In this document: one piece after another, positions 38,755-46,316 of the stretch
How positions within the stretch are numbered: the stretch's first letter is position 1
Layout of the letters: each line of letters begins with the position of its first letter
Origin: Thalassotalea hakodatensis
GTDB taxonomy: Bacteria > Pseudomonadota > Gammaproteobacteria > Enterobacterales > Alteromonadaceae
DNA length: 64,000 nucleotides
NCBI RefSeq assembly: GCF_030295995.1
Contig: NZ_AP027365.1
Location: forward strand, 310,001-374,000
Reading direction: 5' to 3'
Made by a program: the position numbers and the translations under genes
The notes under the pieces: generated by a model
Told to the model about the DNA's origin: nothing
The model's database searches: none
Seen by the model: only the letters and a program-made list of their open reading frames with translations

Positions 38755-39804
38755 CTATGTTTGGCGTTGATAAGACGTTATTGTACGTCTTAAAGTACGA
38801 TGCTTGACAGGTTTTGCTGTATAACCTAGTCGTAAAAACATTAAGCCGTGGTGTCCATCAGGAGATATACCTTTCATATCTTGTTTGATCTGCTCAATGT
38901 TAGGCATGAATTCTGGTTCAATGTTTAACCCTCTTAATGAGTATATAGGCGCTGCTGCATAAGGTTGAACGGATAATTCTTCCATAGCAGCTTGTAACCA
39001 AAAGCGTTGTAATGCTTGGCCCCCTTTTATCACTGATGCGCGAGTATTATCCGCGATAGAAATCAAGGCGAGTACCGGAGAAAAACTAATAGGTACCTGA
39101 ACGGAACGAAAGCCGAGTATTTTTGATACCCCAAGCTTATTGAAAAAGCTAATTGTTTTCCAATTCGACATCATTTGAAAAAAGGGTCTTGCTGGTGGTT
39201 CAATTTCCAGCGTTGATACAGGCATACCTTCTTGTGGCTTCGGATCATCAAAAATAACCGAAGAATATAGTTCTTGATGAAGTATTTTACTTTCAAAGCG
39301 TAAACTCTCAGCGTGTCGCATTACCGGTAAAGCTGATTTTTTTGCTGATTTATCAGTAAAAAAGGTAACCTTAGCATCATGGTATTCTGCTGCTTGTGCT
39401 AATCGAGTTAATACTTCATCTTTCACGGGTCCTTTGAAAGGAAATCGTCTATCGGTACAGCGTTTAGCGATTACATCTGCAAGGTTATGAGTTGCCGAAT
39501 GGCTTTGCTTAAAGCTAATGTCGGCAACATGACGAGGAGCATTTTCTGGTGATGGTAAAATATTTACTTGAGCGGTGTAGCCGAGTTGTTCTGCTTGAAT
39601 CACTGTATTTTCTACCACCGCACCAAGTGATATATCCGATAAAATATAATCTTCATCAGTTGCTTTTCCAGAACGTGTTTCATCAATGTAAAAACTGAGA
39701 ACCCCGTTTTTATGGTACTCGTATGTAAATGGTGAACTATTATCAGCTGAAGGCGCAAATATTGCGGCTTTAATGATGGTTTCTAAATCGGAATGGTTGA
39801 GCAC
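38755..39804 (-). CDS. Acg-type nitroreductase-like flavoprotein
   Basis: This 349-residue protein resembles the Acg branch of the nitroreductase family: two tandem half-domains, an opening LETIIKAAIFAPSADNSSPF with the SADNSxP flavin-contact pattern, and a central AKRCTDRRFPF that recalls the conserved R(R/C)T(D/N)RR stretch. A typical NfsB-type nitroreductase would be much shorter. Its job here may be flavin-dependent oxidation or reduction of a product intermediate (inference). It is the last gene of a co-directional block, 37 bp after the ThiF-like gene, which itself follows the acyltransferase gene by 8 bp. Confidence 0.72.
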   Translation of the reverse strand: MLNHSDLETIIKAAIFAPSADNSSPFTYEYHKNGVLSFYIDETRSGKATDEDYILSDISLGAVVENTVIQAEQLGYTAQVNILPSPENAPRHVADISFKQSHSATHNLADVIAKRCTDRRFPFKGPVKDEVLTRLAQAAEYHDAKVTFFTDKSAKKSALPVMRHAESLRFESKILHQELYSSVIFDDPKPQEGMPVSTLEIEPPARPFFQMMSNWKTISFFNKLGVSKILGFRSVQVPISFSPVLALISIADNTRASVIKGGQALQRFWLQAAMEELSVQPYAAAPIYSLRGLNIEPEFMPNIEQIKQDMKGISPDGHHGLMFLRLGYTAKPVKHRTLRRTITSYQRQT

Positions 39805-39841
39805 AAAGCGTACCTTTCTAGCAGTGAATGAAACAGTTGGT

Positions 39842-40702
39842 TTAAATCGCCATTTTCTTTTTGGCGATGATATAAGCTAATCTTTGAATAGGGTTATTGT
39901 TACCACCTGGTCGCCATGTTTTTTTATACTGATTTGTATAGGCGTCAAAATGTAGACCCCAAGGGACATTGAGCACTTTGCCGCGATTTAGAAAAATTTT
40001 CATCACTTGTGATGCAGCAACGCCAGCGGCTAGTTGGCAACCAATAAAAGTAGAAGGACCTTTTTTATTGGCTAAATCAAGTCTTGTTGGATCCACTAAA
40101 TAGGCACTTTGTAGCGCGGCAGGGGTTAAGCCAAGAAAAAATTTTAAGTATTGCTCATTTTCAGTATGGCCTGCTAAGCGAAAATATTGCTCGAATGTCA
40201 TCTCACCTGGAAGAAAGTTCAGACAAGCTGTTCCCATACCAATAGGTGCAGCAGTCGTTGCAGGTATTTGCTTTTTCGAACATTGATCAAAGACTAAACG
40301 TCGAGCATCCATTACGAAAAAATCAAGAGAATCTACGTAGCAATCTACACCGGCTAAAAACTCATGGATATTGTTAGCGTTGATACCTTCATCAAAGGTT
40401 TTTATTTCAAGTTCCGGATTAATTTCTAAAGCCATTTTAACCATGGTGTCTAATTTTTTAGCACCATAACTATTAATGTTGGCTCCTACTTGTCGATTGG
40501 TATTCTCACAGCCAAACTCATCGAAGTCAGAGACATGAAACTTTCCAATGCCTAATCTTACCAGGGTTAAAAAATGATCGCCGCCAACACCACCTAAGCC
40601 TGCAATCGCTACACATTTGTTGCGTAGTGTCTGTTGTTCTTCTTCTGTAAACCAGCCAATATTACGAGAAAAAGCTAAATCGTAATCAAATTGTTGTGAC
40701 AT
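39842..40702 (-). CDS. ThiF/E1-like adenylyltransferase
   Basis: Rossmann-fold enzyme of the ThiF/MoeB/HesA/TcdA group, which adenylates a carboxylate (a ubiquitin-like C-terminus, or a small substrate). Visible are the nucleotide loop AGLGGVGGD (34-42), DFDEFGCENTNRQ (about 60-72) with the Asn and Arg that contact ATP, and a later DSLDFF. The usual zinc-binding CxxC pairs are absent and I see no obvious thioester Cys, so it may belong to the TcdA-like, non-ubiquitin side. No ThiS-like or MoaD-like carrier protein is encoded nearby, so the substrate is likely a small molecule (inference). Confidence 0.82.
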   Translation of the reverse strand: MSQQFDYDLAFSRNIGWFTEEEQQTLRNKCVAIAGLGGVGGDHFLTLVRLGIGKFHVSDFDEFGCENTNRQVGANINSYGAKKLDTMVKMALEINPELEIKTFDEGINANNIHEFLAGVDCYVDSLDFFVMDARRLVFDQCSKKQIPATTAAPIGMGTACLNFLPGEMTFEQYFRLAGHTENEQYLKFFLGLTPAALQSAYLVDPTRLDLANKKGPSTFIGCQLAAGVAASQVMKIFLNRGKVLNVPWGLHFDAYTNQYKKTWRPGGNNNPIQRLAYIIAKKKMAI

Positions 40703-40710
40703 TTTTTTGC

Positions 40711-41514
40711 CTATGTAGTGGGGGCTCTATAAATTTCGGGGATCCCAAATTGTCCGTCACTTCCATATGGTTTTAATTGAATTTGAGTGGATAACTCTTG
40801 ATAAACGATCTCATACAATTCTTGCATTTGTTCGTTTAGATCAACGTAGAAGTTCTCTTCTTCTAAGAAAAACATTGCACGACGCCCATGATAATCCATT
40901 TCTTCGCCAACCTGCTTAAAGGGAAGGCCAAAGCGTTGTAATCGTCGGTTTAACCTTGGCTCCATCATTACCATGATGCCAACATGGTGACACATACTGG
41001 CTAACGCTAAACCACCTAAATAAAGCCCAATAGCAATGTTTGGAAAGTTGCGACGCTCTTCTGCTGAATACATGGTATCTGGATCAACATTACTTAAAAC
41101 ATAAGGTTTATTTTTTTCTTGTTCACGGCGTCTGAACGATGCTAAAACGGCAAGTCGAGATATTTCACCAAAGCCTCCTCGTGGTAGGCTTTGTGTATCT
41201 AATACCTCTTTTTTTGCACTCTCTAAACAGTGTGCTTCGAAAGGTAACTGATAAGACGGGTTTTCGGCAGGTGGAATAATCAACCGAATACAACCTGCGT
41301 AAATTCCTGTTCGTCGGTGTTCTAATAAGCAATGGTAAGAGAAGTCATCGCAGTCGTCACTTTCCATTCGCTCTTCGTTACTAGGCTCCCAGCCTAGCTC
41401 TTCGCTATAGACTCCGTACCGGATTTTGTAGGCTTCTTGTTGAAGTTCCTTGGTGTTAGCAAACCTGATCTTAAAAAATTGATCAAAGTTCTTTGCTATA
41501 GAATATCCGCTCAT
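40711..41514 (-). CDS. FeeM/autoinducer-synthase-like N-acyltransferase
   Basis: GNAT-fold acyltransferase related to LuxI-type synthases and N-acyl amino-acid synthases (FeeM), matching from memory the family described as PEP-CTERM/exosortase-associated acyltransferase. Signs are IRYGVYSEELGWEP near residues 28-41 (the conserved R..VY.EE.GW), an ESDDCDDFSYHCLL segment, the acceptor core GCIRLIIP near 74, and a late GEISRLAVLASFRRR. It probably transfers an acyl group from acyl-CoA or ACP to an amine or amino acid. No signal peptide. It is 8 bp upstream of the ThiF-like gene, so co-translated. Confidence 0.83.
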   Translation of the reverse strand: MSGYSIAKNFDQFFKIRFANTKELQQEAYKIRYGVYSEELGWEPSNEERMESDDCDDFSYHCLLEHRRTGIYAGCIRLIIPPAENPSYQLPFEAHCLESAKKEVLDTQSLPRGGFGEISRLAVLASFRRREQEKNKPYVLSNVDPDTMYSAEERRNFPNIAIGLYLGGLALASMCHHVGIMVMMEPRLNRRLQRFGLPFKQVGEEMDYHGRRAMFFLEEENFYVDLNEQMQELYEIVYQELSTQIQLKPYGSDGQFGIPEIYRAPTT

Positions 41515-41602
41515 ATAATCAGAAAACGCCTTTTATCACTTAAGTTTAAATATAACAGTATCTGGTAAAAATACCTTACTAATTTTATGCTAATTTTTTT
41601 CT

Positions 41603-42832
41603 TCATAGTAAAATTTCAGCTACTCTTCCCTGACTTAAAAAGTCTTGCGGGCTAGCAGTAGGACCATATGCACCCGATTGATAAATAATAGCAAAGTCAC
41701 CAATATTTGCTTTGGGTAGTTCAACTTTACTTGCTAGAACATCAAGCGGTGTACACAGCGGCCCAACAAGAGTCACGCATTCTGTATCGCTATTTCCAGA
41801 CAATAATTTATTGCCGAGCGACACAGGATAATTTTTTCTGATCACTTGTCCGAAATTACCCGAGTTGGCAAGGTGGTGATGTAAACCACCATTACACACG
41901 AGAAACTTTTGCTCTCGAGATGTTTTAATATCAACTATTTTACTTGCGTAAACACCACATTCACCCACGAGGTATCGGCCTAATTCAATGATCATTTCTA
42001 CGTGTGAAAGCGTTACATATTGCGCAAATAAACGCGTTAAGTTTTCCATTATAGGCGCGGTGTTTAACCGTTTATCCCCCGGAAAATATGGAATGCCAAA
42101 GCCACCACCTATATTAATATAGTCGATCTTACTCTTTGTGATGAGCATCAGCCTTTCTGCAAGTGCAAAGGTATTATTGTGCATCTCTATGATGGCATCT
42201 GCTTGCAAGTTTTGGGAGCCTGAGTAAATATGAAAGCCTCTAAAATTTACCGCATCATAATCAAGTGTTGATAGCACTTCAGGTAATAACTCTTCATCGA
42301 TACCGAAGGGTTTAGCTCCCCCTGACATTCGCATACCAGAGGCTTTCAGTTCAAATGCTGGGTTTACCCGTATTGCTACATTTGGTGTGGTATCAAGGTG
42401 TTTACCACGCTCAATGATGCTCGCCAGTTCGTTAATTGACTCAACATGTAAGGTAATACCGGCAACGATAGCTGCCGTGATATCTTCTTGGGTTTTTCCT
42501 GGGCCTGCAAAACTGATATTGGCTGGTGGCATGCCTGTTTGTAGTGCCAGTAATAACTCTTTTTTTGAAGCAACATCAAAGCCTTTTACTAACGGTTTAA
42601 TAAAATTGACCAGTGGCGGGTAAGGGTTCGCTTTAACAGCATAATGCAAGCTTACTTGAGGTGGTAAGGCGGCTTTGAGTGCCGTAATAGTATCTTTAAC
42701 GATGTTTGCATCATAAGCATAAAAGGGAGTTTGCCCAACGAGCATTTCAATTTGTGCTAAGGTTTTGTCACCAATCAATAGCTGTTGTTGATCAATGTTA
42801 AACTGTGACATAGGGGCATGTAATTTACTCAT
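41603..42832 (-). CDS. fold-III PLP-dependent decarboxylase
   Basis: Alanine-racemase-fold decarboxylase of the diaminopimelate/ornithine decarboxylase class, closest by memory to the group annotated as exosortase-A-associated PLP decarboxylase. The PLP-binding Lys is Lys67 in YAVKANPYPPLV. Others are HVESINEL, the phosphate loop GGGFGIPYFPGD near 240, ELGRYLVGECG, the catalytic CTPLDVL with Cys360, and GAYGPTASP (387-395). The length of 409 residues is typical. Its start overlaps the ligase gene by 4 bp. The amino acid decarboxylated is unknown; the amine could be the acceptor for the acyltransferase. Confidence 0.85.
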   Translation of the reverse strand: MSKLHAPMSQFNIDQQQLLIGDKTLAQIEMLVGQTPFYAYDANIVKDTITALKAALPPQVSLHYAVKANPYPPLVNFIKPLVKGFDVASKKELLLALQTGMPPANISFAGPGKTQEDITAAIVAGITLHVESINELASIIERGKHLDTTPNVAIRVNPAFELKASGMRMSGGAKPFGIDEELLPEVLSTLDYDAVNFRGFHIYSGSQNLQADAIIEMHNNTFALAERLMLITKSKIDYINIGGGFGIPYFPGDKRLNTAPIMENLTRLFAQYVTLSHVEMIIELGRYLVGECGVYASKIVDIKTSREQKFLVCNGGLHHHLANSGNFGQVIRKNYPVSLGNKLLSGNSDTECVTLVGPLCTPLDVLASKVELPKANIGDFAIIYQSGAYGPTASPQDFLSQGRVAEILL

Positions 42833-44424
42833 GATGCTTTATCCGAAAAGAAAGATTGGTACGTTGATGTTAGTAAACTACGATCAAGCTTACCATTTGC
42901 GTTATGTGGTAGTTCTGATAAAACAATGAAAGCTTCTGGTATCATGTAAGTTGGCAGTGCTTTTTTACAATGCAACAATAGTTCGTCTTGTAATGTTTGT
43001 GCCTCTTGCGTACTCGAGACAAGTGCTATAATACCTTGTCCTAGTATTAAATGTTCTATACCGATAACCACACATTCTAAAACATTTGCATGTTGGTATA
43101 ACACTTCTTCAATCTCAGTGGGACTTACTCGATAACCTGATGTTTTGATCATTTCATCGTTTCTAGCAATGAAATATAAATAACCCTCTTTATCTTTTGT
43201 CACGGTATCACCTGAATACACAGCTATTTCAGGTAATTTTATACCTTGTGGTGAACAAGGGGATGGTTTAAAACGCATTTGTGTTGCTTGTTGTGCATTC
43301 CAATACCCTAAAGAGACTAATGGTCCGGTATGCACAAGCTCGCCAGGTTCATTCTCCGTGCATTCTTTTCCTTGGTCATTAATCACAAATATTTCTACAT
43401 TTGGAATGGCCTTGCCTATTGAGTTGGGTTTACAATCAATTTTTTCTGGTGGCAAGTAGGTAGAACGAAAAGCTTCTGTAAGCCCATACATCATATAAGG
43501 TAGCGCATCAGGTACTGCTGCTCGTAATGTAGATAAAATGTTTTCAGGTAGTGCACCACCAGAATTGGTAAAATACCGCAAACTTGTGGTGTTGTACTTT
43601 TGCCAATTAAGCTTTGCTAATTGCCCCCATAACGGCGGTACACCTGCAAGACCAGTGACGTTATGTTGCTCTACTGCTTTGAGCAAATCTTGTGGTAATA
43701 AGTAATCAATCAAAATTGCATTCGCACCTGCGAGAAAACTTGTAGTAAGTTGGCTAAACCCGTAATCAAAGCTAATGGGTAATGCAGCAAGAATCACATC
43801 TTGCTCGTTGTTATGTAGATAGCTACTAACAGAGTGTGCGCCGATAACAATATTCTGATGGGATAGTACCACGCCTTTGGGCTTTCCTGTGCTGCCCGAA
43901 GTGTAAAAAATAGCCGCCATATCGGTTGATTTTATCGGCCTAGAAATTGGTGCGGTTCGTTTATTTTCACGAAAATAACGCCAAGATATGACACTAATGT
44001 GCTCGATGGTTTCGTGAGCAATTTCTTGTTCATCAACCAGTAATATATAGCGTAAAGCCGTGAGGTTATTTAGTTGATTTTTGAGGGTATGAAACCTTGC
44101 TTTATTGGTGACTAATAACGTTGTTTGGCAATCTTCTAAAATATGTTCAACTTGTGCTGTTTTTAATAATGGATTAATCGGAACAAAAACTGCGCCTATT
44201 CGGCTACATGCAAATAAAATGGTGATTGCTGTAATATTTTTCGGTAGTAAAACAGCGATACGATCGAAACGTGTGATCGATAATGCGCTATAACCATTAG
44301 CATTAGTGGTGATTTCGTGTTGCAACTGTTGATATGTAAGGCTGGTAGACTTACAGGTTAAAGCAGTTTTATCGGCATATTTGCTGGCTGAACTTGAGAT
44401 GAGTTCATGAACAAAGCTGGTCAT
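42829..44424 (-). CDS. AMP-forming acyl-CoA ligase / adenylation enzyme
   Basis: ANL-superfamily enzyme that activates a carboxylic acid as an acyl-adenylate and passes it to CoA (or a carrier). Core motifs are FYTSGSTGKPKG (173-184), YGLTEAFRSTY near 338, the SGDTV (A7) and the hinge region, and the catalytic Lys512 in NANGKLD. At 531 residues it is full length. It resembles the family labelled exosortase-A-associated acyl-CoA ligase 1. It is translationally coupled to the decarboxylase (ATGA overlap). In such systems it probably feeds the acyl donor to the acyltransferase two genes downstream. A possible operator lies upstream. Confidence 0.87.
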   Translation of the reverse strand: MTSFVHELISSSASKYADKTALTCKSTSLTYQQLQHEITTNANGYSALSITRFDRIAVLLPKNITAITILFACSRIGAVFVPINPLLKTAQVEHILEDCQTTLLVTNKARFHTLKNQLNNLTALRYILLVDEQEIAHETIEHISVISWRYFRENKRTAPISRPIKSTDMAAIFYTSGSTGKPKGVVLSHQNIVIGAHSVSSYLHNNEQDVILAALPISFDYGFSQLTTSFLAGANAILIDYLLPQDLLKAVEQHNVTGLAGVPPLWGQLAKLNWQKYNTTSLRYFTNSGGALPENILSTLRAAVPDALPYMMYGLTEAFRSTYLPPEKIDCKPNSIGKAIPNVEIFVINDQGKECTENEPGELVHTGPLVSLGYWNAQQATQMRFKPSPCSPQGIKLPEIAVYSGDTVTKDKEGYLYFIARNDEMIKTSGYRVSPTEIEEVLYQHANVLECVVIGIEHLILGQGIIALVSSTQEAQTLQDELLLHCKKALPTYMIPEAFIVLSELPHNANGKLDRSLLTSTYQSFFSDKAS

Positions 44425-44471
44425 GGCTAATGCCTACGAGAAGCGTAAATATAAAATGTTGATGTTATGTT

Positions 44472-44488
44472 AATACAAATTGTGTATT
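44472..44488. promoter_or_regulatory. possible operator upstream of the ligase-decarboxylase genes
   Basis: AATACA-N5-TGTATT, a 17-bp inverted repeat, lies 48 bp upstream of the ligase start in the 110-bp gap after the patatin gene. It is a plausible regulator site but short enough to be chance in AT-rich DNA. No regulator gene is in the cluster. Confidence 0.3.
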
Positions 44489-44534
44489 GATGCTATGCCT
44501 TTGCTTTTCAAGTTAAATTACTTTGAAAGAACAA

Positions 44535-45398
44535 TTAAAGCTTTACGGTTTTTTTTGCATCAATGGATAAGGCTTTTACTTTGATCGGTAATATTTTCGT
44601 GGCAGTATGATAGCCCTTGTAAAATAGCGCTTCTTTTTGTGCTAATGTCATTCCAAAGTCAACTGCTGAAGAAATACCAGTATTGACGACTACCGTATTA
44701 TGCCAGAATGCCTCATTAATATATTCTCGGGATATGGTGGTCATAAAAGTACGTATTAATAAGCTGACATATTGCACGATTGGGAACATGCCTTTTATTT
44801 TGATATCGTCATATTCGTAATCGCCTTTCAAGCGAAAGCAAACCACAGGAGTGCCATCATTTGCCCAATCACGATGTAAGGCATCTTCTGATAAAATGCT
44901 GCCATCAACCATTAAATGTTTATCAAAGGTTTTAAAGCTAAAAACCAAGGGAATTGACATCGAGAAGCGTACCGCAAGCGACACTTTTAAATCAGGTGTA
45001 TTTTCTTTGTTAAAGATCACGGGTTTACCGCGAGCTACGTCAGTTGCAACAATGTGTAAGTTAAACGGCATTTCTTTGAATGTTTTGCCGTGAAGCAGGC
45101 GATCGATCCAACGTTCAAAGACATCACCTGAGCTAAGGCCACCATTACGCAATAATTTAATTAAAGAATAACCACGAAACTTTGTATAATCTGTGTTTAA
45201 AGCGATATGTTTAATTTCAGCAATGGATAACCCTGAAGCATATAAACTGCTAATAATACTACCACCGGAAACCCCAACAATATGATCAAAGTCGAGATCA
45301 TATTCATGAAGCGCTTGTAAAATGCCTACGTGGGCGGGAAGGCGTGTTCCGCCGCCAGCAAGAATAGGGACAATTTTTTGAGTATTCATAGCTTTCAC
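44535..45398 (-). CDS. patatin-like phospholipase
   Basis: Lipid acyl hydrolase of the RssA/patatin family with a Ser-Asp dyad. The oxyanion loop is GGGTRLPAH (15-23), the nucleophile elbow GVSGG (42-46) has Ser44, and the Asp is D165 in VDGSILS. At 287 residues it is a single-domain, cytosolic or membrane-peripheral protein without a signal peptide. It precedes the ligase gene by 110 bp on the same strand and may belong to the same pathway, for instance releasing the fatty acids used for acylation (inference). The start could be either Met1 or Met4. Confidence 0.86.
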   Translation of the reverse strand: MKAMNTQKIVPILAGGGTRLPAHVGILQALHEYDLDFDHIVGVSGGSIISSLYASGLSIAEIKHIALNTDYTKFRGYSLIKLLRNGGLSSGDVFERWIDRLLHGKTFKEMPFNLHIVATDVARGKPVIFNKENTPDLKVSLAVRFSMSIPLVFSFKTFDKHLMVDGSILSEDALHRDWANDGTPVVCFRLKGDYEYDDIKIKGMFPIVQYVSLLIRTFMTTISREYINEAFWHNTVVVNTGISSAVDFGMTLAQKEALFYKGYHTATKILPIKVKALSIDAKKTVKL

Positions 45399-45554
45399 TT
45401 TAAAACTAACTTATTGTTATCAATATAATTATGGTCAAAAATCATAATATTGCCTAATAATTTATAAAAGTTCATGCAAAAGTGTTTTTTGCTACTGAGG
45501 CTTTTTGATACATTTAATCTCAGAATAACAACGTATAAGGTGCGAAGTAAGGCG

Positions 45555-46316
45555 ATGATAAAATGGATAATGTGGTGTTGTTTTGTTCTTTGTGGAGCAG
45601 TACACGCGAGCGAGTTAGCCGATACCCTCGAAAAAATCAAACCATCTGTTGTTGGAATTGGTGTTTATACGCCAACGGGTCGGCCTAAAAATCAATTACA
45701 TGGCACAGGTTTTGTCATCGGCAACGGCAAATTTGTTGTCACAAATCATCATGTAGTTCCTGAATCGTTAAACGTTGCATTAAAACAACAACTAGCGGTA
45801 TTCGTTGGCTCTGGGCGGCAAGCAGTTGTGCGCAAAGCACGTTTGATTGATTCATCAGCGAAGTATGATTTAGCTGTACTTGCCATTGAGGGTGACCCTT
45901 TACCCGCTATGACGCTATCAAATAGTGATTTTATCCGAGAAGGTAGTTATGTTGCGTTTACTGGTTTTCCTATTGGTGCAGTATTAGGGCTTTATCCGGT
46001 AACACACAGAGGTATTGTTGCGAGTATCACGCCAACGATAACACCTGTTGCAGATGCTAAAAAAATTAATATCGCGATGTTAAAACGTTTACGTGATCCT
46101 TACTTAGTGTATCAATTAGATGCAACCGCTTACCCTGGTAACAGTGGTAGTGCCTTATATGAAATTTCCACAGGTAAGGTGGTTGGTGTGATTAATAAAG
46201 TGTTTGTGCAAAAAACCAAAGAAGGGGTGATCACAAATCCTAGTGGGATAACTTATGCTATTCCTATTAAATATGTTATTGAATTGTTAGAAAAAAACAA
46301 AATCTTGTTCAAGTAA
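45555..46316 (+). CDS. trypsin-like serine protease (S1C), periplasmic
   Basis: Chymotrypsin-fold protease of the DegP/HtrA class without a PDZ domain. I chose the ATG at 45555 (residue 28 of the longest frame) because a good signal peptide begins there (MIKWIMWCCFVLCGAVHAS); the earlier part adds an odd leader. The triad is His in VVTNHHVV, Asp in SAKYDLAVL and Ser in YPGNSGSALY. At 253 residues only the protease domain is present. It is divergent from the patatin gene and converges with yibQ. The role is probably envelope-protein quality control or processing (inference). Confidence 0.86.
   Translation: MIKWIMWCCFVLCGAVHASELADTLEKIKPSVVGIGVYTPTGRPKNQLHGTGFVIGNGKFVVTNHHVVPESLNVALKQQLAVFVGSGRQAVVRKARLIDSSAKYDLAVLAIEGDPLPAMTLSNSDFIREGSYVAFTGFPIGAVLGLYPVTHRGIVASITPTITPVADAKKINIAMLKRLRDPYLVYQLDATAYPGNSGSALYEISTGKVVGVINKVFVQKTKEGVITNPSGITYAIPIKYVIELLEKNKILFK

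Follow-up and report, generated by a model that had tools for sequence, protein, structure and literature searches.

As described in the available parts of the papers cited here, oxazolone pathways illustrate how an acyltransferase, a ThiF-like enzyme and a flavin enzyme can act in succession. TyzA N-acylates tyrosine, TyzB cyclises the product with adenosine triphosphate (ATP), and TyzC desaturates it with O2; TyzB is a ThiF homologue, from a superfamily that adenylates carboxylates (PMC10404671). In TrzS, cyclisation and desaturation are carried out by one fusion protein (PMC12856293). Thalassotalic acids, which are N-acyl dehydrotyrosines, were isolated from Thalassotalea sp. PP2-459, and a 2025 paper proposes an acyltransferase-ThiF-nitroreductase cluster of that strain for their formation (Commun Chem, PMC12479983). 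A different chemistry is represented by VinN, VinL and VinO, through which 3-methylaspartate is loaded onto a carrier protein and decarboxylated there, and by BtrK, which decarboxylates glutamyl-BtrI (PMC11284099, PMC7857480). In VinN, an Asp residue serves the alpha-amino group of the substrate, and a Ser and an Arg serve its alpha-carboxyl group (PMC7756342). In this work, we describe a block of six genes from Thalassotalea hakodatensis in which relatives of both kinds of enzyme stand side by side. It lies in a 64-kb stretch of DNA (hereafter, the window) that corresponds to positions 310001-374000 of one contig of 4.28 Mb, and it encodes a patatin-like protein, an adenosine monophosphate (AMP)-forming ligase, a pyridoxal phosphate (PLP)-dependent decarboxylase, an N-acyl amino acid synthase (the acyltransferase), a ThiF-like enzyme and a nitroreductase.

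We read the block as two modules placed next to each other, namely the thalassotalic-acid set and the ligase-decarboxylase half of the accessory set of exosortase A (XrtA), and assign this reading a probability of roughly 0.8. It builds on the observed family membership of the proteins, the presence of XrtA and PEP-CTERM proteins, the division of the set between two loci, the conservation of active sites and the co-occurrence of the genes across genomes. None of the genome's exosortase, PEP-CTERM or carrier-protein matches (0/1, 0/17 and 0/4, respectively) falls within the window, as the preliminary description of this DNA had reported; its broader statement, that the genes occur without any exosortase, does not stand. 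A search with PF09721 located one exosortase on the same contig at 223086-223829 (contig coordinates), approximately 125 kb from the block, and the protein is typed as XrtA by TIGR03109 (330 bits, cut-off 208). The surrounding locus is canonical, with TIGR03016, 03018, 03007, 03013, 03006, 03019, 03087, 03109, 03108, 04063 and 03097 all over cut-off; these models include a chain-length determinant, a tyrosine kinase, an EpsB-type transferase, a deacetylase, a FemAB protein, a glycosyltransferase, an amidotransferase and an O-ligase. The genome search for PEP-CTERM proteins gave 17 matches, 14 of them over cut-off. The exosortase seemed missing because the XrtA locus and the PEP-CTERM genes fall outside the window, so its apparent absence is a window-edge artefact. 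Physical linkage of the ligase-decarboxylase pair to the exosortase locus was not found in this genome, given the distance of about 125 kb.

A gene for an 83-aa carrier protein, two hydrolase genes (a hydr2-like gene and hydr1) and two PrsT genes were found in the XrtA region, about 102 kb from the ligase-decarboxylase pair. Because the carrier, hydr2-like and hydr1 genes remain at the XrtA locus, the XrtA set is split, and the window carries half of it. The hydr1 protein scores 287 bits (cut-off 168), and the hydr2-like protein scores 122 bits, under its cut-off of 203. A carrier-protein model built without the copy of this genome gives the XrtA-locus carrier 66 bits, versus 17-20 for the genome's other Pfam-detected carriers. 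In other genomes a stand-alone carrier protein is adjacent to the pair, whereas in this genome it stands at the XrtA locus. Six genomes have at most 1.4 kb between decarboxylase and acyltransferase, and in five of these (G000, G066, G099, G030 and G074) the carrier-hydr2-hydr1 trio is located at the XrtA locus; three of the five belong to one genus, and the recognition of hydr2 in G030 and G074 is weak, at 54-58 bits in single-sequence comparisons. The trio stands beside the ligase in G134 and G332. On one contig of G067, an XrtA core (L162) accompanies the order decarboxylase-ligase-carrier protein-PrsT-nitroreductase-ThiF-acyltransferase (L057), with approximately 37 kb from exosortase to acyltransferase. 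An acetyltransferase-like gene (PF13480) immediately precedes the carrier gene in all three genomes examined for it (G000, G030 and G074). The two PrsT genes mentioned above (L081:12194-17708) are arranged in tandem and encode tetratricopeptide repeat proteins that score 611 and 632 bits with TIGR02917 (cut-off 312).

The comparison with solved structures suggests a chemical role for the pair. For residues 1-360 of the ligase, the best solved matches are 3wv4, 3wv5 and 3wvn (E 5e-38), which we take to be VinN, the entries being named just non-ribosomal peptide synthetase; the full-length protein finds linear gramicidin synthase LgrA first (E 5e-72) and 3wvn seventh (6e-55). A single numbering offset of 16 puts all three published VinN residues on identical residues of the 3wv4 chain, and D220, S288 and R320 of the ligase align with VinN Asp230, Ser299 and Arg331. 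Among 25 ligase homologues, the own-genome copy and close strains counted in, the trio reads DSR in 24 and DTR in one; it occurs in none of six other adenylate-forming enzymes. The decarboxylase matches BtrK, entered as L-glutamyl-[BtrI acyl-carrier protein] decarboxylase, with an E value of 1.2e-65, followed by 6knh ("probable diaminopimelate decarboxylase protein", 3.6e-44) and the diaminopimelate decarboxylase 2p3e (2.5e-39). Its CTP motif, present in 26/26 homologues, is shared with BtrK and 6knh, while 2p3e has CET. Because the ligase resembles VinN, down to three conserved residues, and the decarboxylase resembles BtrK, we predict that the ligase attaches an acidic amino acid, by the side-chain carboxyl, to a carrier protein and that the decarboxylase decarboxylates the amino acid once it is bound there.

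The other module has a published counterpart. The preliminary description had envisaged an N-acyl product that is then modified, and such a product for this species is already in print as the proposal made for the acyltransferase-ThiF-nitroreductase set (PMC12479983). Compared with L082, a contig of strain PP2-459, the six-gene block is 99.5% identical at the DNA level; the acyltransferase and ThiF proteins are 100% identical and the nitroreductase 98.6%. We place PP2-459 in the species of the window's genome. The genome G066, which is listed under that species, gave one acyltransferase and one ThiF match, and the published cluster was matched by strain and by these single matches, not by locus tag. 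An AlphaFold2 model of the acyltransferase (mean predicted local distance difference test score, pLDDT, 85.9) searched with Foldseek found acyl-homoserine lactone (AHL) synthases as its top matches and, in seventh place, FeeM (2g0b, E 1.5e-7), so that the predicted model shows the FeeM/LuxI fold. In the ThiF protein, the glycine-rich loop and 10 further Arg, Asp, Gln, Lys or Ser columns that were checked are invariant in 9/9 aligned sequences. Across the best 80 of 580 confirmed ThiF loci, each at most 21 kb long, some of them short contigs and scored with profile limits set in this analysis, an acyltransferase is found in 53 and a nitroreductase/oxidase in 60; ThiF and nitroreductase form one open frame in 32. 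Among the ThiF genomes of the family sample described below, 60/61 also have an acyltransferase over cut-off, and the remaining one (G040) has a fragment. On these homologies, the module very likely makes thalassotalic acids in this genome.

Co-occurrence was examined in 118 genomes of the family and 239 of the phylum, eight being common to both samples. Presence lists and positions were tabulated by hand, and genomes unlisted in the search output were taken as lacking the gene (3, 5, 67 and 37 in the four family searches; 168, 212, 149 and 203 in those of the phylum). Sub-cut-off decarboxylase matches were excluded. In the family these are fragments in G048, one match in G061 and an additional one in G037; in the phylum they concern 52 genomes, since of the 70 that matched at E 1e-75, 18 exceeded the cut-off. 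An exosortase match below cut-off in G101 was counted as absence. Exosortase was over cut-off in 92/118 family and 51/239 phylum genomes. In the family, it accompanies the acyltransferase in 83/84 genomes, ThiF in 61/61 and the decarboxylase in 27/29; in the phylum, the respective figures are 14/16, 7/7 and 17/18. The family exosortases fall into two score classes, 62 genomes with an XrtA-like protein (PF09721 at least 196 bits) and 30 with a low-scoring one (at most 166 bits), TIGR03109 typing having been applied to the protein of the window's genome only. The decarboxylase is found in 27/62 of the former and 0/30 of the latter. ThiF is present in 25/30 low-scoring genomes, so that the N-acyl amino acid module seems to be retained alongside a second type of exosortase. 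Relative to the exosortase, the decarboxylase gene lies within 41 kb in 13/29 genomes, farther away on the same contig in eight and on another contig in six, with no exosortase in two. These distributions bear directly on the preliminary description, which had proposed a stand-alone pathway independent of exosortase: the genome holds XrtA and PEP-CTERM proteins, and the strong co-occurrence across genomes completes the combination of findings that the description itself had named as speaking against it.

Some gene arrangements seen in these samples are recorded here in their own right. In G020 (L063:4893-10569) and G082 (L064:4936-10568), which have no exosortase, a tight cluster consists of a carrier protein, an LpxL-like acyltransferase (PF03279), an MsbA-type exporter (TIGR02203 over cut-off), ligase and decarboxylase; it looks like an exosortase-free, lipid-export home of the pair. 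In G222 (L164:7222-12174), likewise with no exosortase match, ligase and decarboxylase over cut-off are followed by genes for a carrier protein, a glycosyltransferase of family 2 and a polysaccharide deacetylase. At G037:C6:279859-283281, about 1 kb separates two genes of the decarboxylase family that are read from opposite strands; one exceeds the TIGR03099 cut-off, and the other, in a 734-aa open frame, stays below it at 372 bits. Finally, G161:C1:1459275 (L165) and G165:C1:3231526 (L166) carry TIGR03694 proteins over cut-off in genomes with no exosortase match and no NF006077 match at E 1e-40.

Several observations weigh against the two-module reading or limit its reach. The decarboxylase is absent from 35/62 XrtA-like genomes and is therefore an optional part of the system, and it occurs without exosortase in G020 and G082 (2/29 in the family) and in G222 (1/18 in the phylum). 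A search of 40 kb from G109 did not find the carrier trio. The full-length ligase places LgrA above VinN. Among the 80 best ThiF loci, the acyltransferase is missing in 27 and the oxidase in 20, and an XrtA hallmark is found in 37, yet an exosortase in just four, which speaks against a tight link. For the thalassotalic acids, the available part of the paper bases the assignment to Thalassotalea on comparison, the deletions having been done in Stieleria neptunia, and reports no oxazolone observed from thalassotalic acid producers (PMC12479983).

The alternative that survives best holds that the N-acyl amino acid made by the acyltransferase, whether or not ThiF and the nitroreductase process it, is itself a component of the exosortase/exopolysaccharide (EPS) system, for example a lipid partner, and not only a free metabolite. 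The acyltransferase is present in 83/92 exosortase genomes of the family sample versus 1/26 others, and a 2011 article by Craig et al. is said, going by its title, to tie such synthases to the PEP-CTERM system. Against this stand the 2/16 acyltransferase genomes of the phylum sample that have no exosortase, and the isolation of thalassotalic acids from PP2-459 reported in PMC12479983, whose main text mentions neither exosortase nor PEP-CTERM. We regard a role as EPS component as possible, though rather doubtful.

A decidedly less promising scheme, close to the one first put forward for this block, unites all five enzymes in one pathway: an amine from the decarboxylase and an acid activated by the ligase would be joined by the acyltransferase, and the product would be modified by ThiF and the nitroreductase. 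In Thalassotalea, the five genes are co-directional with short gaps, and the decarboxylase is found at most 1.4 kb from the acyltransferase in 6/29 and at most 20 kb from it in 23/29 decarboxylase genomes. The distributions tell another story, with the proviso that the Fisher tests ignore relatedness (G066 and G099, for instance, are close kin of G000). ThiF occurs in 16/29 decarboxylase genomes versus 45/89 others (p=0.68) and, among XrtA-like genomes, in 16/27 with and 20/35 without the decarboxylase (p=1.0); the acyltransferase occurs in 24/29 versus 60/89 (p=0.16), or 24/27 versus 33/35 among XrtA-like genomes (p=0.64). The genus-mate G021 has acyltransferase and ThiF without a decarboxylase, and the ligase pairs with a carrier protein. 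Moreover, by analogy with TyzB, which cyclises N-acyl tyrosine with ATP (PMC10404671), the ThiF enzyme should need the very carboxylate that the decarboxylase removes. Because the decarboxylase and ThiF are distributed independently and the chemistry should call for that carboxylate, we reject the single-pathway scheme, and with it the idea of a decarboxylated amine joined to an activated acid, as improbable.

It is very unlikely that the acyltransferase is an AHL synthase and the block the source of a quorum-sensing signal. The LuxI-type fold and the AHL synthases, which are the top structural matches and the best solved-structure matches by sequence (FeeM not being among the latter), would favor such a role. 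FeeM, however, also matches by fold, the protein scores 261 bits with TIGR03694 versus 32 with the best AHL-synthase model, and its ThiF and nitroreductase partners and the chemistry of PP2-459 point elsewhere. An identity of the pair as a common acyl-CoA ligase and a diaminopimelate decarboxylase, both unconnected with XrtA, is hardly credible: the family-level similarity is real (209 bits with the lysA model TIGR01048, 328 with the acyl-CoA ligase model PRK06187), but both scores miss their cut-offs (298 and 476) while both proteins pass the XrtA-associated models, their nearest solved relatives are amino-acid-loading enzymes and BtrK, and the decarboxylase follows the XrtA-like exosortases (27/62 versus 0/30).

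Returning to the two-module reading, we infer the substrates, the order of steps, the partners and the final acceptor as follows. In the first module, a set of the OxzAB/TyzABC type, the acyltransferase would N-acylate tyrosine, and the ThiF and flavin enzymes would cyclise and/or desaturate the N-acyl tyrosine to give thalassotalic acids. In the second, the ligase would activate an acidic amino acid of the Asp or Glu type at its side-chain carboxyl and load it onto the dedicated carrier protein of the distant XrtA locus; the decarboxylase would then strip the alpha-carboxyl, so that a beta- or gamma-amino acid with its amine free stays bound to the carrier. The products of the acetyltransferase-like and hydrolase genes that neighbour the carrier gene may pass this amine on, and the genetic setting suggests the XrtA polysaccharide or a lipid as its most likely recipient. 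In our reading, the modules have two things in common: both are associated with genomes that carry exosortase, and in Thalassotalea both occupy the same place.

A further step, which we consider unlikely, would be that exosortase A transfers PEP-CTERM proteins onto the free amine from the carrier set. This acceptor would be a beta-alanine- or gamma-aminobutyric acid (GABA)-like group on the XrtA polysaccharide or its lipid carrier. The analogy comes from archaeosortase A, for which an ethanolamine lipid made through a decarboxylase was proposed as acceptor in a model that its authors call speculative in the available text; the genes for archaeosortase A and the lipid decarboxylase adjoin in several Methanosarcina species (PMC7157517). 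Such a role cannot be universal, because more than half of the XrtA-like genomes (the 35/62 given above) have no decarboxylase; where the set is lacking, a different amine would serve.

The layout of the block agrees with what the preliminary description had given: six open reading frames (ORFs), all on the minus strand and co-directional, in the order patatin, ligase, decarboxylase, acyltransferase, ThiF and nitroreductase from 5' to 3' (Table 1). Ligase and decarboxylase overlap by 4 bp, and gaps of 8 bp, 37 bp and 110 bp separate acyltransferase from ThiF, ThiF from nitroreductase and patatin from ligase, respectively. Profile searches also bore out its placement of the ligase, decarboxylase and acyltransferase in exosortase-associated families (TIGR03098, TIGR03099 and TIGR03694); together with ThiF, four of the six proteins exceed NCBIfam cut-offs. 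The nitroreductase passed PF00881 narrowly, with no single stretch significant, and lies under every NCBIfam cut-off, its top score being 144.9 bits (NF005901). Roles as MoeB/ThiF cofactor enzymes, in the cyclic-oligonucleotide-based antiphage signaling system (CBASS) or in other defence were set aside, the NCBIfam scores being under the curated cut-offs.

Table 1. Genes of the block and of its conserved flank (window positions)
Feature	Position	Strand	Evidence
AMP-forming ligase, VinN-like	42829..44424	-	TIGR03098 728 bits (cut-off 592)
Fold-III PLP decarboxylase, BtrK-like	41603..42832	-	TIGR03099 557 bits (cut-off 478)
N-acyl amino acid synthase, LuxI/FeeM fold	40711..41514	-	TIGR03694 261 bits (cut-off 112)
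ThiF-like adenylyltransferase/cyclase, TyzB/OxzB-type	39842..40702	-	NF006077 404 bits (cut-off 266)
Acg-type nitroreductase/flavin-dependent oxidase, TyzC/OxzB-type desaturase	38755..39804	-	PF00881 25.4 vs 23.5; Acg structure 2ymv E 1.8e-6
Patatin-like protein	44535..45398	-	PF01734 105 bits; Pfam only
Trypsin-like protease, conserved flank	45474..46316	+	PF13365

The neighbourhood itself is conserved in part. The closeness of acyltransferase and decarboxylase recurs in most decarboxylase genomes, as described above, whereas the patatin, although close to the ligase or acyltransferase in several family loci, is present in only 8/80 best ThiF loci; it was dropped as a pathway member on this count and is kept as a recurrent neighbour. 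The trypsin-like protease adjoins the patatin in L059, L060, L061, L062, L067, L070 and L072, lies a few kb from the cassette in L065, L073 and L076, and ends the XrtA superlocus in some relatives.

These results correct the picture of an apparent orphan: a published N-acyl dehydrotyrosine set stands beside a displaced half of the exosortase A accessory set. They also offer a chemical prediction, carrier-bound decarboxylation of an acidic amino acid, for TIGR03098 and TIGR03099, two families that NCBIfam names by association only, and this prediction could reveal the addition that these accessory genes make to the XrtA polysaccharide or the sorted proteins. What appears to be new is the interpretation of the XrtA-associated ligase and decarboxylase as a pair of the VinN/BtrK kind, together with its split carrier protein. 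A literature search, with subscription journals mostly outside its coverage, found no paper tying VinN/BtrK chemistry to exosortase, and the main text of the 2006 PEP-CTERM paper (PMC1569441) does not mention decarboxylase, acyl-CoA, acyl carrier, ligase, acyltransferase or ThiF.

Set against the systems already described, the locus is in each case similar and distinct. With the XrtA set (TIGR03098, TIGR03099, TIGR03100 and TIGR03101) it shares a ligase, a decarboxylase and a hydr1 protein that exceed curated cut-offs, but here the set is divided by about 102 kb, and its hydr2-like member misses the cut-off (122 versus 203 bits). The paper on the PP2-459 cluster gives, in its available part, gaps of less than 10 bp or overlaps between the genes, while 37 bp separate the ThiF and nitroreductase ORFs here, and its comparative-genomics section leaves the neighbouring ligase and decarboxylase undiscussed. 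The oxazolone pathways OxzAB (Pseudoalteromonas rubra), TyzABC and TrzAS, as far as the available texts describe them, use the same trio of acyltransferase, ThiF cyclase and flavin oxidase, separate or fused; in the window, ThiF and oxidase are separate genes, and it is in the absence of a reported oxazolone that the thalassotalic producers differ. The vicenistatin (VinN/VinL/VinO), butirosin (BtrI/BtrK) and bolagladin (BolO/BolC/BolN) systems have in common a ligase with the Asp/Ser/Arg trio, a stand-alone carrier protein and a BtrK-like decarboxylase. They serve polyketide, aminoglycoside or peptide assembly lines, whereas the setting predicted here is that of a polysaccharide and an exosortase.

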